The notes under the pieces are model-generated. The model searched no databases and was not told where the DNA came from. It saw only the letters and a list, made by a program, of their open reading frames with translations. From assembly GCF_000024845.1 (NCBI RefSeq), contig NC_013501.1, forward strand, positions 2,460,874-2,524,873: a stretch of DNA of 64,000 nt, written 5' to 3'. The position numbers and the translations under genes are program-made. Origin of the DNA: Rhodothermus marinus DSM 4252 (GTDB lineage Bacteria; Bacteroidota; Rhodothermia; Rhodothermales; Rhodothermaceae). Below, in pieces: positions 4,881 through 39,587 of the stretch; within the stretch, counting starts at the first letter, position 1; each line of letters opens with the position of its first letter.

Positions 4881-6248
4881 TCAGCCCAGATAGCCCCGGA
4901 AGACGTTCAGCAGGATGATAAAGATCACCACTGGGCAGACGTACCGGATGAAAAACTGCCACACGCGCACCAGTCCGGGGCCCACCCGGCTGCCCTGCCG
5001 CAGCTCTTCGGCCGCCCGATCGACGCCCCAGACCCATCCCACGAAGATGCTGATCAGCAGCGCGCCCAGCGCCAGCGCCAGATTGCCCCAGATGGCGTCC
5101 ATGATGCTCAGAAAGTCGTGCTGTCCGAGCAGGCCGTCCGCCCCGAACAACCAGTCCATGTTGCTCAGTCCCGCCACGGTGCCCTGCGACAGCGCCGACG
5201 GCAACCCAATCAGGAACGTCAGGGCGCCCACCACCCAGACCGACCGCTTCCGGCTCCAGCGTCGCTCGTCCACGAAATAGGCAACCACCACCTCCAGCAG
5301 CGAGACGGTGGACGTCAGCGCGGCAATCGACAGCAGCAGGAAAAACAGCGCGCCGATCAGATTCCCCAGCGGCAGGGCCTGAAAGATCTCGGGCAGCACG
5401 ATGAAGACCAGCGCCGGACCGCTGGCCGGATCGTGTCCCGTGGCAAAAACGGCCGGAAAGATCATGAAACCGGCCATCAGCGCAATGAGCGTATCGAAAA
5501 GCGCCACGTAGGAGCCGGCCACCACCACGTCTTCATGCCGCGACAGGTAGGAGCCATAGGTGATCATGGCGCCCATGCCCAGGCTGAGCGAAAAGAACGC
5601 CTGCCCGAGCGCCGCCACGATCACCTCGCCCGTCACCTTGGAAAAATCCGGCTTCAAGTAGAAAGCCAGGCCCTTTTCGGCGCCGGGCAACGTCACCGAG
5701 CGCACGATCAGGACGATCATGAGCAGAACCAGCAGCGGCATGAGCACCTTCGACCAGCGCTCGATCCCCTCCTCTACCCCGCCAAACACCACCAGCATCG
5801 TCAGCCCCAGAAACAGCGCAAACAGTGGAATGACGATCCACGGGCTGGCGATAAAGTGCCCGAAGTCCAGGTGTGCAAACAGCAGGTTTTTGAAGATGTA
5901 GCCGAACGTCCAGCCTGCAATGACCGCATAGTAGCTCAGGATGAAGACGCCGGTCAGCACGCACAGGCCACCCACGAGCACCCAGGGCGAGCCGGGGCGA
6001 ATGGTCCGGATGGCGCCCAGCGGATTTTTCTGCGTGTGCCGTCCCAGCACCAGCTCGGCAAACAGATAGGGCAGGCAGACCAGCGCCACGCAGACCAGAT
6101 AAATCACCACAAATGCAGCCCCGCCGCTCTGGCCGGTGATATAGGGAAAGCGCCAGATGTTGCCGAGCCCGACGGCCGAGCCGGCGGCCGCCAGAATGAA
6201 GCCCACGCGGGAGCCCCACTGGCCCCGCTCTGCACCCGGTGTGGCCAT
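4881..6248 (-). CDS. Sodium-dependent transporter, NSS/SNF family
   Basis: A multi-pass symporter of the neurotransmitter:sodium symporter family (LeuT fold), importing an amino acid or similar solute with Na+. TM1 carries the family signature GSAVGLGNIWRFPY, with its unwound Na+-binding region. TM6 and TM8 type segments (SLSLGMGAMITYGSY, IAALTSTVSLLEVVVAY) are present. The length, about 455 aa with 11-12 predicted spans, is typical of prokaryotic NSS. I chose the ATG at 6248 (MATPGAERGQW); the frame extends 17 codons to a TTG at 6299 that adds no conserved sequence. The substrate cannot be read from the sequence. Confidence 0.93.
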   Translation of the reverse strand: MATPGAERGQWGSRVGFILAAAGSAVGLGNIWRFPYITGQSGGAAFVVIYLVCVALVCLPYLFAELVLGRHTQKNPLGAIRTIRPGSPWVLVGGLCVLTGVFILSYYAVIAGWTFGYIFKNLLFAHLDFGHFIASPWIVIPLFALFLGLTMLVVFGGVEEGIERWSKVLMPLLVLLMIVLIVRSVTLPGAEKGLAFYLKPDFSKVTGEVIVAALGQAFFSLSLGMGAMITYGSYLSRHEDVVVAGSYVALFDTLIALMAGFMIFPAVFATGHDPASGPALVFIVLPEIFQALPLGNLIGALFFLLLSIAALTSTVSLLEVVVAYFVDERRWSRKRSVWVVGALTFLIGLPSALSQGTVAGLSNMDWLFGADGLLGQHDFLSIMDAIWGNLALALGALLISIFVGWVWGVDRAAEELRQGSRVGPGLVRVWQFFIRYVCPVVIFIILLNVFRGYLG

Positions 6249-34684: not shown

Positions 34685-35551
34685 ATGAGTGAACCGGTCG
34701 ATCACCTGCTGCACCTGCTGAATCTGGAACGCATCGAAGAAAACATCTTCCGCGGACCGAGCCGCGACATCGGGAGCCCGACTGTGTTCGGGGGACAGGT
34801 GCTCGGTCAGGCGCTGCGGGCGGCCGCCTACACGGTGCCGCCCGAGCGCCGGGCGCATTCGCTCCACGCCTACTTCATCCTGCCCGGCGATCCGAACGCG
34901 CCCATCGTCTATCTGGTCGAGCGGCTGCGCGACGGCCGGAGCTTCACCACGCGCCGCGTGACGGCCATCCAGCACGGCCGCCCGATTTTCAACCTGTCGG
35001 CCTCGTTCCAGATCGAAGAGCCCGGCGTGGAACACCAGGATCCCATGCCCGAAGTGCCTCCGCCGGAAGAGCTGATCTCCGAGGCCGAGCTGCGCCGCCA
35101 GCTTGCCGAGCAGGTGCCCGAAGTGCTCCGGCCGTTCCTGCTGCACGAACGCCCCATCGAGATCCGTCCGGTCGAGCCCGTCAACCTGCTGTTTCCCGAA
35201 AAGCGTCCGCCCCGGCGCCATGCCTGGATCCGTGCGGCCGGTACGCTCCCCGACGACGATCTTGCGCTGCACCAGAGCGTGCTCGCCTACGCGTCGGATT
35301 TCGGTTTCATGGGGACGGCCATGCTGCCCCACGGCCTGTCGTTTCTGCAACCGCACGTGCAGGCCGCCAGCCTGGATCATGCCATGTGGTTCTACCGGCC
35401 GTTCCGCGCCGACGAATGGCTGCTGTTCGCCATGGAAAGCCCGGTGGCGGCCCACGCCCGGGGACTGAACCGCGGCCTGTTCTTCCGACGCGACGGCACG
35501 CTCGTGGCCGCCGTCGTCCAGGAAGGCCTCATGCGCATTCGATCGGATTGA
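34685..35551 (+). CDS. tesB: Acyl-CoA thioesterase II
   Basis: Hydrolyses acyl-CoA esters. The 288-aa double hot-dog protein has the family opening ENIFRGPSRDIGSPTVFGGQ (read in parts), LHAYFILPGD and RDGRSFTTRRV. The catalytic Asp is in YASDFGFMG and the Gln in VQEGLMR, matching the Asp-Thr/Ser-Gln site of E. coli TesB. It follows the SDR gene and precedes DUF2283 by 3 bp, a likely operon. Confidence 0.94.
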   Translation: MSEPVDHLLHLLNLERIEENIFRGPSRDIGSPTVFGGQVLGQALRAAAYTVPPERRAHSLHAYFILPGDPNAPIVYLVERLRDGRSFTTRRVTAIQHGRPIFNLSASFQIEEPGVEHQDPMPEVPPPEELISEAELRRQLAEQVPEVLRPFLLHERPIEIRPVEPVNLLFPEKRPPRRHAWIRAAGTLPDDDLALHQSVLAYASDFGFMGTAMLPHGLSFLQPHVQAASLDHAMWFYRPFRADEWLLFAMESPVAAHARGLNRGLFFRRDGTLVAAVVQEGLMRIRSD

Positions 35552-35554
35552 GCT

Positions 35555-35749
35555 GTGAACATCATCTACGACATCCAGACCGACACGCTAACGATCGTTT
35601 TCACCGAAGCGCCCGTGGCCGAAAGCGACGAAGCCGCACCGGGCGTGATCCTGGACTTCGATGCGGCCGGCAATCTGGTAGCCCTGGAGCTGCTGGACGC
35701 TTTCCGACGGGTCACGCATCCCCAACAGGTCACCTTGATTATACCGTAG
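35555..35749 (+). CDS. DUF2283 family protein
   Basis: A 64-aa protein from a GTG start, 3 bp after tesB. The pattern IYDIQTDTLTIVF, GVILDFDAAGNLVALELLDA (read in parts) is that of DUF2283, small proteins often near toxin-antitoxin loci. Function unknown. It is the last gene before the AT-rich island. Confidence 0.85.
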   Translation: MNIIYDIQTDTLTIVFTEAPVAESDEAAPGVILDFDAAGNLVALELLDAFRRVTHPQQVTLIIP

Positions 35750-35872
35750 AACTTTCTAATGAAGTTTTCCAATAATGACACCATAGCTTGGAGTTTGCAA
35801 TTCACTAAAAAGTTGGACTTCACCGATCAGCAAACCTTTTTCATCATCACGGTGAATCAGTACTCTATGTAA

Positions 35873-36781
35873 GGTGATTGCTTAATAGGTTCCACCTTGT
35901 TAAATTCCCCAAGCCATCCATAAGGTGGGATCATGAAGCTGAGTGAACTGGCCGCGCTGGCCGCCGACGAGCAAAAAGCCGAAGCCTTCCTGCAAAGCCG
36001 CGGCCTGCTGCCGCGCTTCACCCACTGCCCCTACTGCAAAAGCGAACACCTCGGCCGCGTGCGGCGGCGCTTTTACAAATGCTATCGGTGCCGCCGCGAA
36101 TGGAGCCCCCGCAAGGGTTCGCTCCTGGAGGGTTTGCGCCTGCCGCTGGGCAAGTTTCTGCTGGCCTTGAAGCTATTTGAACTGGAAGTGTCGGCCCGGC
36201 GTGCGGCTCGTGAGCTTGGCCTGGCCTACAACACGGTGCATCGGTTGTTTCTGTTGTTTCGGGAGCGGATCTATCAGTCCAGCAGCCAGGAAGCCCAGCT
36301 TTCGGGCGAAATCGAGATGGACGAGAGCTACTTTGGGGGTCGTCGTCGGGGCAGGCGGGGACGTGGGGCTGTGGGCAAGCTGCCGGTGTTTGGGATTCTG
36401 GAGCGGGGTGGCAAAGTAAAGGTAGAAGTGGTGCCGGACGTGCGGGCCGAGACGTTGCTGCGGGAGGCGATTCGGAAGGTCCGACGGGGCAGTTTGATCT
36501 ACACGGATCGGTTTCGGAGCTACGATGGGCTGGTGTGCTATGGGTTTCGGCATGAGCGGATTGATCACGGGCAGCGTTTTGCCAACGGGAAGGTGTACAT
36601 CAACGGGATTGAGGGTTTTTGGAGCTATGCGAAGGAGCGTTTGCTGAAGTATCATGGGTTGTCGGCCCTGTGGTTTCCGTTGTACTTGAAGGAATTGGAG
36701 TTTCGATACAATCATCGGAAGGAGGATTTGTTTGAGAAACTGCTGGAAGTGCTAAAAGGTGGAATGAATTGAGCAATCACC
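35873..36781 (+). mobile_element. Complete IS1595-family insertion sequence (909 bp)
   Basis: Bounded by 26-bp imperfect inverted repeats (35873-35898 and 36756-36781, 22 of 26 identical) starting GGTGATTGCT. It holds one transposase gene, whose stop codon lies inside the right repeat. Both ends and the duplication are intact, so it may still be active. Confidence 0.93.
35933..36772 (+). CDS. IS1595-family transposase
   Basis: A 279-aa transposase. It has an N-terminal zinc-ribbon (CPYCKSEHLGRV ... CYRCRREW, residues 33-57) and a helix-turn-helix-like segment (RRAARELGLAYNTVHRLF). The ISXO2-like DDE/N catalytic domain has the first Asp in EMDESYFGGRRRGR, the second in LIYTDRFRSYDGL and the third block NGIEGFWSYAKERLLKYHG, where Asn/Glu lie as in the family, ending with RYNHR. 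Full length with no frameshift. Confidence 0.94.
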   Translation: MKLSELAALAADEQKAEAFLQSRGLLPRFTHCPYCKSEHLGRVRRRFYKCYRCRREWSPRKGSLLEGLRLPLGKFLLALKLFELEVSARRAARELGLAYNTVHRLFLLFRERIYQSSSQEAQLSGEIEMDESYFGGRRRGRRGRGAVGKLPVFGILERGGKVKVEVVPDVRAETLLREAIRKVRRGSLIYTDRFRSYDGLVCYGFRHERIDHGQRFANGKVYINGIEGFWSYAKERLLKYHGLSALWFPLYLKELEFRYNHRKEDLFEKLLEVLKGGMN

Positions 36782-37484
36782 CTATGTAAAGTACCTTTAT
36801 GCGCTTGTAGAGGCCGAGTTAAAGTTCCTACCCAACGGCCAATGTCGTCTGTTTCTCCAAGAATAGCAGAACGCACAGTTACTTCTTTCAGTAGACTCAG
36901 TTGATTTTCTGCTGCAGCCATAGCATATGCAATCTTAGCAATCATTCTAGCAAATGAAATAGGTTTATGAGATTGTTCTATTTCAATTTTTGACGTCTTC
37001 AATTTTCTCATAACTTCATCTATTGATGGACCAAAAGAAATTGTTATCACTCCTTCAAGATGAATCCCTCCAGAATAATTCTCAGGTTGTAAAAAACCAG
37101 GCGGTGAGAAAATGGGAAAATGGAGCAAAACCGGATATTCTTTCAATGGAAGATAAACTATTTCTTTCTTGTTCTTTCTAATTATACTAAGCGGATATTT
37201 TTCAGGAGCTTCTTTATGTTTTGTTCGCGATTTAAGGTTAAGCAATATTCTTACTGCCCATAATGGACCGCGTAACACATCTTGCTCTATCATACCTGTA
37301 ATTTTTGCACATTTATTACATGTTGATTTTAATAGCTTAGCGGTACCACTCAATCCGAAAGGAAGAATATGTTCATCACTCAAATCATTTTTGGCACCGC
37401 AATAAATACAATAACCAATCGGTCCATAAACCAAATTATTAAGAGATTTCATCTTATCTATCTTCTTTTTATCCGTCCCTTTAG

Positions 37485-39587
37485 TCATCCCACCCGCGCA
37501 AAACCCAGCGAGCGCGTGGCATAGAAGCGGTCGTAGTAGGCGCGCAGCATGGCGTGCTCGGGCGCCTCAAGGTTGGGATCGCGGCGGATCAGCTCGAAGG
37601 CGGCCTCACGTGCTTTGATCAGAATCGGCTGGTCCTGCGTGATGTCGGCAATCTTCAGATCGGGTAGTCCGCTCTGGCGCGTGCCGAAAAAGTCGCCCGC
37701 CCCGCGGAGCTTCAGGTCCATCTCGCTGATCTTGAAGCCGTCGTCCGTCTCGGCCATCACCCGAAGGCGCTCTTCGGCCTCGGCCGTGCGCCGGTGGTCC
37801 ACCATCAGGATGCAGTAGCTCTGCTCGGCGCCGCGCCCGACGCGGCCCCGGAGCTGGTGCAGCTGGCTCAGTCCAAACCGCTCGGCGTGCTCGATGATCA
37901 TCACCGTCGCGTTCGGCACATCGACGCCCACCTCGATCACCGTCGTGGCCACCAGGATGTCAGTCTCGCCGTTTTTGAACCGCTCCATGGCCTCCTCCTT
38001 CTCGTAGGGCAGCATGCGGCCGTGGATCAGATCCACGCGGTAGGGCCGGAACAGCTCCTTGAGCCGTCGGTAGCCGTTCTCGGCGTCCTGCAGGTCCATT
38101 TTTTCGCTTTCCTCGACGAGCGGATAGACCACATAGGCCTGGCGCCCCTGGCGGAGTTGCTCGCGGAGAAAGGCGTACACCTCACCCCGACGTTTTTCGG
38201 AGCGGATCCAGGTGATGACGGGCTTGCGTCCGGCCGGCCGCTCGTCGATGATCGACACGTCCAGATCGCCGTAGAGCGTCATGGCCAGCGAACGCGGGAT
38301 CGGCGTGGCCGTCATGAGCAGCATGTGCGGGTTTTCGCCTTTGCTGAAGAGTTCGGCCCGCTGCACCACCCCGAAGCGGTGCTGCTCGTCCACGATGGCC
38401 AGCCCCAGCCGATGAAACTGCACGGTCTCCTGAATCACCGCATGCGTGCCCACGGCCACGTGCGCCCGACCTTCGGCCAGATCGGCCAGAATTTCTTCGC
38501 GCAGCGACTTGCGCTGCCCGCCCAGCAGCAGCCGCACCTCGACGCCCAGCGGGTCCAGGTAGCGGCGCATGTTCGCATAGTGCTGCTCGGCCAGGATTTC
38601 CGTGGGCACCATGAAGGCGCTCTGGTAGCCGTTGTCCACCGCGTGCAGGATGGCCGCCATGGCCACCACGGTCTTGCCGCTCCCCACGTCGCCCTGGATG
38701 AGCCGGTTCATCTGCAGGCCCGAGGTGGTGTCGCGGATGATGTCCTCCAGGGCCCGCTTCTGGGCGTTCGTCAGCTCGAAGGGAAGGATTTCGTTCAGAA
38801 AGCGATGAAACCGTTCGCCGGGCGGTCCGAAGCGGGGTCCGGCCACGGCCTGGCGGATCTGCTTCGTGCGGGCCAGCATGAGCTGGATGAAGAACAACTC
38901 CTCGAACTTGAGCCGCTCGCGGGCCTGGGCCAGCTCCGCCTGACTCCGCGGGAAGTGCACGGCCCGAAGCGCCACGCGGCCGTCCATCAGCCCGTAGCGC
39001 GTGCGGATCCACTCGGGAAGGATCTCCGGAAGCTTCAGCCCGTGCTGTTTGAAGAACGTGTACAGGATGCGCCGGAACGTGCGGCTGGTGAGCCCGACTT
39101 TTTCCAGCGCGGCACCGCCCGGATACAGGGCGATGATGCGGCCGGTGGCCAGCGCGGCCCCTTCCCCGTCGAGCCGATCGAAGTCCGGATGCGTCATCGA
39201 AAACGTGTAGCCGAAGCGCTGGACCTTGCCGTGAAAGGCCACCCGATCGCCCGGCTTGAATGCTTTCGCGACCCAGTTCAGGCGGTTGAACCAGACGCAC
39301 TTCAGGCGACCGCCGCTCTCGTCTTCCAGGATCAGTTCGAACCGCTTGCGGCCTTTGCCCTCCACCACCCCGGCCACGCGCACCGTTCCGACCACCGTCA
39401 CGGACCCCATGCGCTCGTCCAGCCGCCGAAGCGGCACGATCGTCGAGCGGTCCAGATAGCGCCGCGGAAAGTAGTGCAGCAGGTCCCGGACGGTGTGCAC
39501 GCCCACGCGGGCCAGCACCTCAGCCCGACGCGGTCCCACCCCGGCCAGGTAGCGCACCTCGGTGGACAGGATGTTCAGATCGGCCAC
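37485..39587 (-). CDS. recG: ATP-dependent DNA helicase RecG
   Basis: Remodels stalled replication forks and Holliday junctions. The 700-aa protein has the N-terminal wedge/OB domain (LLHYFPRRYLDRS, VVGTVRVAGVVEGKGRKRFE), Walker A GDVGSGKTVVAMAA, DEQHRFGVVQR, LMTATPIPRS, and the final helicase motif with RGRVGRGAEQSYC. Family-typical C-terminal LKLRGAGDFFGTRQSG is intact. It starts with GTG at 39587. Its stop overlaps the start of the AT-rich HNH-like gene. Confidence 0.96.
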   Translation of the reverse strand: MADLNILSTEVRYLAGVGPRRAEVLARVGVHTVRDLLHYFPRRYLDRSTIVPLRRLDERMGSVTVVGTVRVAGVVEGKGRKRFELILEDESGGRLKCVWFNRLNWVAKAFKPGDRVAFHGKVQRFGYTFSMTHPDFDRLDGEGAALATGRIIALYPGGAALEKVGLTSRTFRRILYTFFKQHGLKLPEILPEWIRTRYGLMDGRVALRAVHFPRSQAELAQARERLKFEELFFIQLMLARTKQIRQAVAGPRFGPPGERFHRFLNEILPFELTNAQKRALEDIIRDTTSGLQMNRLIQGDVGSGKTVVAMAAILHAVDNGYQSAFMVPTEILAEQHYANMRRYLDPLGVEVRLLLGGQRKSLREEILADLAEGRAHVAVGTHAVIQETVQFHRLGLAIVDEQHRFGVVQRAELFSKGENPHMLLMTATPIPRSLAMTLYGDLDVSIIDERPAGRKPVITWIRSEKRRGEVYAFLREQLRQGRQAYVVYPLVEESEKMDLQDAENGYRRLKELFRPYRVDLIHGRMLPYEKEEAMERFKNGETDILVATTVIEVGVDVPNATVMIIEHAERFGLSQLHQLRGRVGRGAEQSYCILMVDHRRTAEAEERLRVMAETDDGFKISEMDLKLRGAGDFFGTRQSGLPDLKIADITQDQPILIKAREAAFELIRRDPNLEAPEHAMLRAYYDRFYATRSLGFARVG

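Follow-up and report, generated by a model that had tools for sequence, protein, structure and literature searches.

ISApl4, a 712-bp insertion sequence of the IS1016 group within the IS1595 family, has terminal inverted repeats and makes 8-bp target duplications (PMC12561309). The catalytic signature of IS1016 reads DESYFG-(53)-YTD----Y-(24)-xINGIExFW (PMC12561309). Solitary HNH_5-like endonucleases (PF14279), e.g., WP_150131671.1 of Rhizobium leguminosarum, are ∼265 to 290 amino acids long and combine a Cys4/DEH motif with a conserved C-terminal segment. The window analyzed here (64,000 nucleotides of the Rhodothermus marinus DSM 4252 genome, which comprises 3,386,737 bases in two contigs, the larger of 3,261,604) contains a relative of each. 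Its HNH_5-like protein shares the motif, length range, and C-terminal segment of the solitary endonucleases; unlike theirs, the Rhodothermus gene is split by an insertion sequence and strongly diverged. In our reading, to which we assign a probability of about 0.94, the HNH_5-like gene was acquired at recG and later inactivated by an IS1595-family insertion, with the preinsertion state being a reconstruction from sequence. The inactivation of an acquired gene by an insertion sequence is an ordinary type of event; the locus is a clear-cut example of a gene being acquired and then inactivated in this way at a variable chromosomal site. The annotation is also corrected, as the 258-amino-acid frame that ends within the element is best read as an interrupted HNH_5-like gene.

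Structure and probable activity of the insertion element

The insertion sequence (909 bp, positions 35873 to 36781, plus strand) is complete. Its terminal inverted repeats, GGTGATTGCTTAATAGGTTCCACCTT and GGTGATTGCTCAATTCATTCCACCTT, lie at 35873 to 35898 (plus strand) and 36756 to 36781 (minus strand) and are identical at 22 of 26 bases; the element starts with GGTGATTGCT, and the inverse stands at the other end. The 8-bp target duplication CTATGTAA is exact at both edges (35865 to 35872 and 36782 to 36789). The original prediction, which described 26-bp imperfect inverted repeats within a flanking duplication, was thus correct on both points. The transposase (279 amino acids, 35933 to 36772, plus strand) matches PF12762 with 119 bits (E value of 2.4e-34; cutoff of 27) and the NCBIfam model NF033547 with 156.8 bits (cutoff of 75). 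Its catalytic signature is intact, with IS1016-type motifs at positions 130, 190, 224, and 253, and the spacing nearly equals that described for IS1016, the last interval being off by one residue (PMC12561309). The features by which IS1595 membership is recognized (a transposase above curated cutoffs, the signature spacing, inverted repeats, and target duplications of 7 to 9 bp) were all found, and the profile scores and spacing confirm the family proposed in the original prediction. The element shares with ISApl4 the transposase family, catalytic signature, terminal inverted repeats, and 8-bp target duplications; in contrast to ISApl4, it measures 909 rather than 712 bp, its repeats are longer and imperfect, and its host is chromosomal, in Rhodothermus (PMC12561309).

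A second full copy, identical to the first and with its own 8-bp duplication (ATAATCTG), is located at 1442202 to 1443110 of the genome. A third copy, flanked by ATAAAATTA, is identical over 882 bases and split by another transposase-bearing insertion. The identity of the copies and the exactness of the target duplications argue for recent activity of the element in the R. marinus genome; these observations, along with a frame free of decay, also bear out the proposed recency of the disruption. The sequence shows that the IS1016-like element, apparently active in the R. marinus genome, entered at CTATGTAA and duplicated its 8-bp target. Among the seven Rhodothermus genomes searched, only two contain the element. 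The congener G005 has one full related copy (92% identical) plus numerous fragments, most of them located at the ends of contigs, but no copy at the recG site, where the HNH gene is absent as well. The plasmid records searched yielded no copy of the element and none of the HNH locus, and the viral contigs contained neither the exact empty-site sequence nor the flank of the HNH gene beside the element.

Two further observations concern the other copies. The second full copy (G000:C1:1442202-1443110) lies just downstream of the apparent 3′ end of a tRNA gene. The third copy (G000:C1:1559319-1561411) is interrupted by an element with an IS630-like transposase and what seems to be a duplicated TTAA.

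Removal of the element restores an HNH_5-like frame

On the minus strand, the 5′ part of the HNH_5-like gene (36782 to 37488) encodes the whole Cys4/DEH motif, while the severed 3′ part (35756 to 35872, which includes one target duplication) amounts to 117 nucleotides, i.e., 38 codons and a stop. Removing the element and one CTATGTAA gives a minus-strand frame of 271 codons that runs from 37488 to 35756, where the stop ends. The insertion thereby falls within codons 234 to 236, with the junction after residue 233. The present-day disrupted frame (258 amino acids, 36712 to 37488, minus strand) derives its last ∼20 residues from the element.

The join was assessed with a profile built from 57 homologous proteins without any sequence of the window. 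Against this profile, the restored protein reached 230.2 bits, aligning with positions 7 to 265 of 277, up to the natural end of the family. The present 258-residue frame scored 202.9 bits, the 5′ part alone scored 200.7 bits, and joins shifted by 1 or 2 bases scored 200.8 to 201.1 bits. None of 500 shuffled tails scored above 208.3 bits. Searched alone as a single sequence, the tail matched in the predicted frame (E value of 1.3e-8) and gave no match to this profile in the other two frames. A tblastn search recovered four homologs from plasmids, all carrying an HNH endonuclease annotation; one of them aligns with residues 21 to 268 of the restored protein and so crosses the junction. Many loci from an alignment-based scan likewise match up to residues 268 to 271. 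Because only the exact join restores the profile match, with shuffled tails and shifted joins failing to do so, the predicted join is, by these tests, real beyond chance.

The restored frame could in principle be a chance read-through into an intergenic tail, as the tail is merely 38 codons long. The profile tests and their controls refute this reading, the homolog alignment also speaks against it, and we regard it as practically excluded. The 271-codon frame and the 38-codon tail of the original prediction therefore hold, as do homologs that span the junction. Its figure of 7 bp between the restored stop and that of the DUF2283 gene (35747 to 35749) needs correction to 6 bp.

A solitary HNH_5-like nuclease candidate

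The restored protein matches Pfam HNH_5 (PF14279) with 22.9 bits (E value of 8.2e-5), which is below the gathering cutoff of 27.5. Nearly all homologs (48/49) match HNH_5 at an E value of ≤0.01, and the motif C-x2-C, DEHIxP, C-x2-C is present (C27, C30, D38-E39-H40, P43, C57, and C60), with residues that are invariant or nearly so across 57 homologs. The proposed nuclease is thus backed by the homologs and the conserved motif, while its own score falls short of the Pfam threshold. We consider the protein a candidate solitary HNH_5-like nuclease and do not file it as a curated PF14279 member.

A single-sequence scan of genome contigs retrieved no relatives; the alignment scan retrieved 59 genomic loci plus another 11 on viral contigs. 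Phage records gave no match, and an Rfam search was also without a match. Against PDB sequences, the profile gave weak matches, confined to the HNH stretch, with HNH nuclease domains that form part of larger proteins. The best homolog, from Peristeroidobacter (L032), is ∼40% identical. The locus points to a widespread, little-described family of solitary HNH proteins; for their C-terminal domain, solved structures offer no confident match.

The original prediction had also raised a defense function, and the gene might accordingly be an antiphage defense gene that was switched off. HNH domains are found in defense effectors, and a few homologs lie beside defense-like genes (capP, E2, GmrSD, TIR, or type II methylase), at one locus each. 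However, no profile of PADLOC-DB 2.0.0 matches the Rhodothermus protein or three of its homologs. No conserved defense partner gene was found either (the same PADLOC family occurs in at most 2 of 107 homolog neighbors), and the Rhodothermus locus itself has no partner gene. Lacking both a PADLOC match and a conserved gene partner, the defense function is unsupported, and we judge this explanation quite unlikely.

Consequences of the lost C terminus

The 258-residue frame retains the HNH motif but lacks ∼35 to 38 residues, predicted to form three conserved C-terminal β-strands, and has ∼20 unrelated residues in their place. In the AlphaFold2 model of the closest homolog, L032 (mean pLDDT of 90), strands 229 to 235, 238 to 244, and 253 to 259 correspond to the part severed in Rhodothermus. 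Positions conserved in most homologs also lie beyond the junction (L254, P261, Y263, V265, and G268).

The truncated product might still work, in which case the insertion would have exchanged a C terminus and not knocked out the gene. The insertion leaves both the Cys4/DEH motif and the start region undamaged, and the reading frame continues without a stop into the element. Yet the missing residues include sites that most homologs conserve, a confidently predicted fold is deprived of three strands, and the new tail is element sequence that adds only ∼2 bits over no tail. A working product is therefore very unlikely in our estimation. From the homolog alignment and the model, we infer that the 258-residue product is most likely inactive.

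The L032 model (4965 to 5780; model m2f7a7108f4f2) contains a C-terminal domain of ∼200 residues, predicted with high confidence and without a significant match among PDB or viral models. The best Foldseek E values were 0.53 (PDB) and 0.27 (viral models), and VIA-align gave a best Z score of 3.7, to thioesterase-like folds, which is not significant; the absence of a match does not show a new fold.

Genomic setting of the HNH gene

The HNH gene and insertion sequence lie in a lineage-specific, low-GC segment (35738 to 37484) that replaces ∼30 bp and is absent from all sampled congeners. The HNH gene has a GC content of 0.36 and a GC3 of 0.24, versus a GC3 of 0.87 for recG; without the insertion sequence, the foreign segment is hardly larger than the HNH gene. 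On one side, recG (37485 to 39587, minus strand) is directly upstream of the HNH gene and on the same strand. The ATG of the HNH gene overlaps the recG stop as ATGA, and the two genes could therefore be translated together. On the other side, a DUF2283 gene (35555 to 35749, plus strand; PF10049, E value of 1.4e-15) with an altered 3′ end flanks the insertion, and the far border of the variable site is formed by an acyl-coenzyme A (CoA) thioesterase gene (34685 to 35551, plus strand).

The comparison set comprised six other Rhodothermus genomes, including R. marinus AA3-38, with one genome per species. The intact gene or empty site that the original prediction had expected in relatives was not found among these six genomes, all of which, AA3-38 included, lack the HNH gene. 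The thioesterase gene directly adjoins recG in G001 and G006; in G005, DUF2283 is the sole gene between them; in AA3-38 (G002), a DUF4258 frame and DUF2283 occupy the interval; and in G003 and G004, 1.5 to 1.9 kb of other cargo is followed by a repeat of the thioesterase gene end. A similar difference exists between Calidithermus relatives, the sister having other DNA where the HNH gene sits. A flank comparison in Bradyrhizobium was set aside, as it was dominated by a repeated element. Because the congeners differ at the site and the Calidithermus comparison is similar, we conclude that the thioesterase-recG site is variable and that the HNH gene arrived before the insertion sequence. Its absence from congeners, low-GC composition, and breakpoints suggest that this R. 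marinus lineage acquired the solitary gene horizontally at the recG 3′ end, in a low-GC segment scarcely longer than the gene.

These patterns could also be those of a selfish, free-standing (homing-like) endonuclease that inserts as a single gene, the insertion sequence having merely hit one copy. Presence or absence as a single gene, in Rhodothermus and between the Calidithermus relatives, would agree with this, as would the scattered distribution of homologs over many phyla and viral contigs and their lack of a conserved partner gene. However, the comparison covers two sites only, without a systematic look for a common target, and the other DNA in the sister Calidithermus is what a general cargo site would be expected to hold. 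PF14279 genes have also been reported among integron-associated genes and therefore travel by other means (PMC7370490). We consider a selfish endonuclease unlikely. Similarly doubtful is the wider proposal that the HNH_5-like family consists of single-gene mobile endonucleases inserting at gene ends in unrelated bacteria, with the recG locus catching one insertion before its inactivation by the insertion sequence.

Between recG and the thioesterase gene, the cargo in G003 and G004 (L024, 1507 to 3169; L023, 4532 to 6417) includes a gene of the PD40/WD40-like lipoprotein type. The repeat of the thioesterase 3′ end that follows is 142 bp long and 88% identical in one congener; in the second, its length is 33 bp and its identity 94%. 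By its sequence arrangement, this interval in G003 and G004 appears to be a small integration hot spot. In AA3-38 (L021, 1594 to 2086), the DUF4258 frame (PF14076) is apparently frameshifted near its end and lies directly before DUF2283. The lone DUF2283 gene of the window (35555 to 35749) looks like the remnant of a decaying two-gene module.
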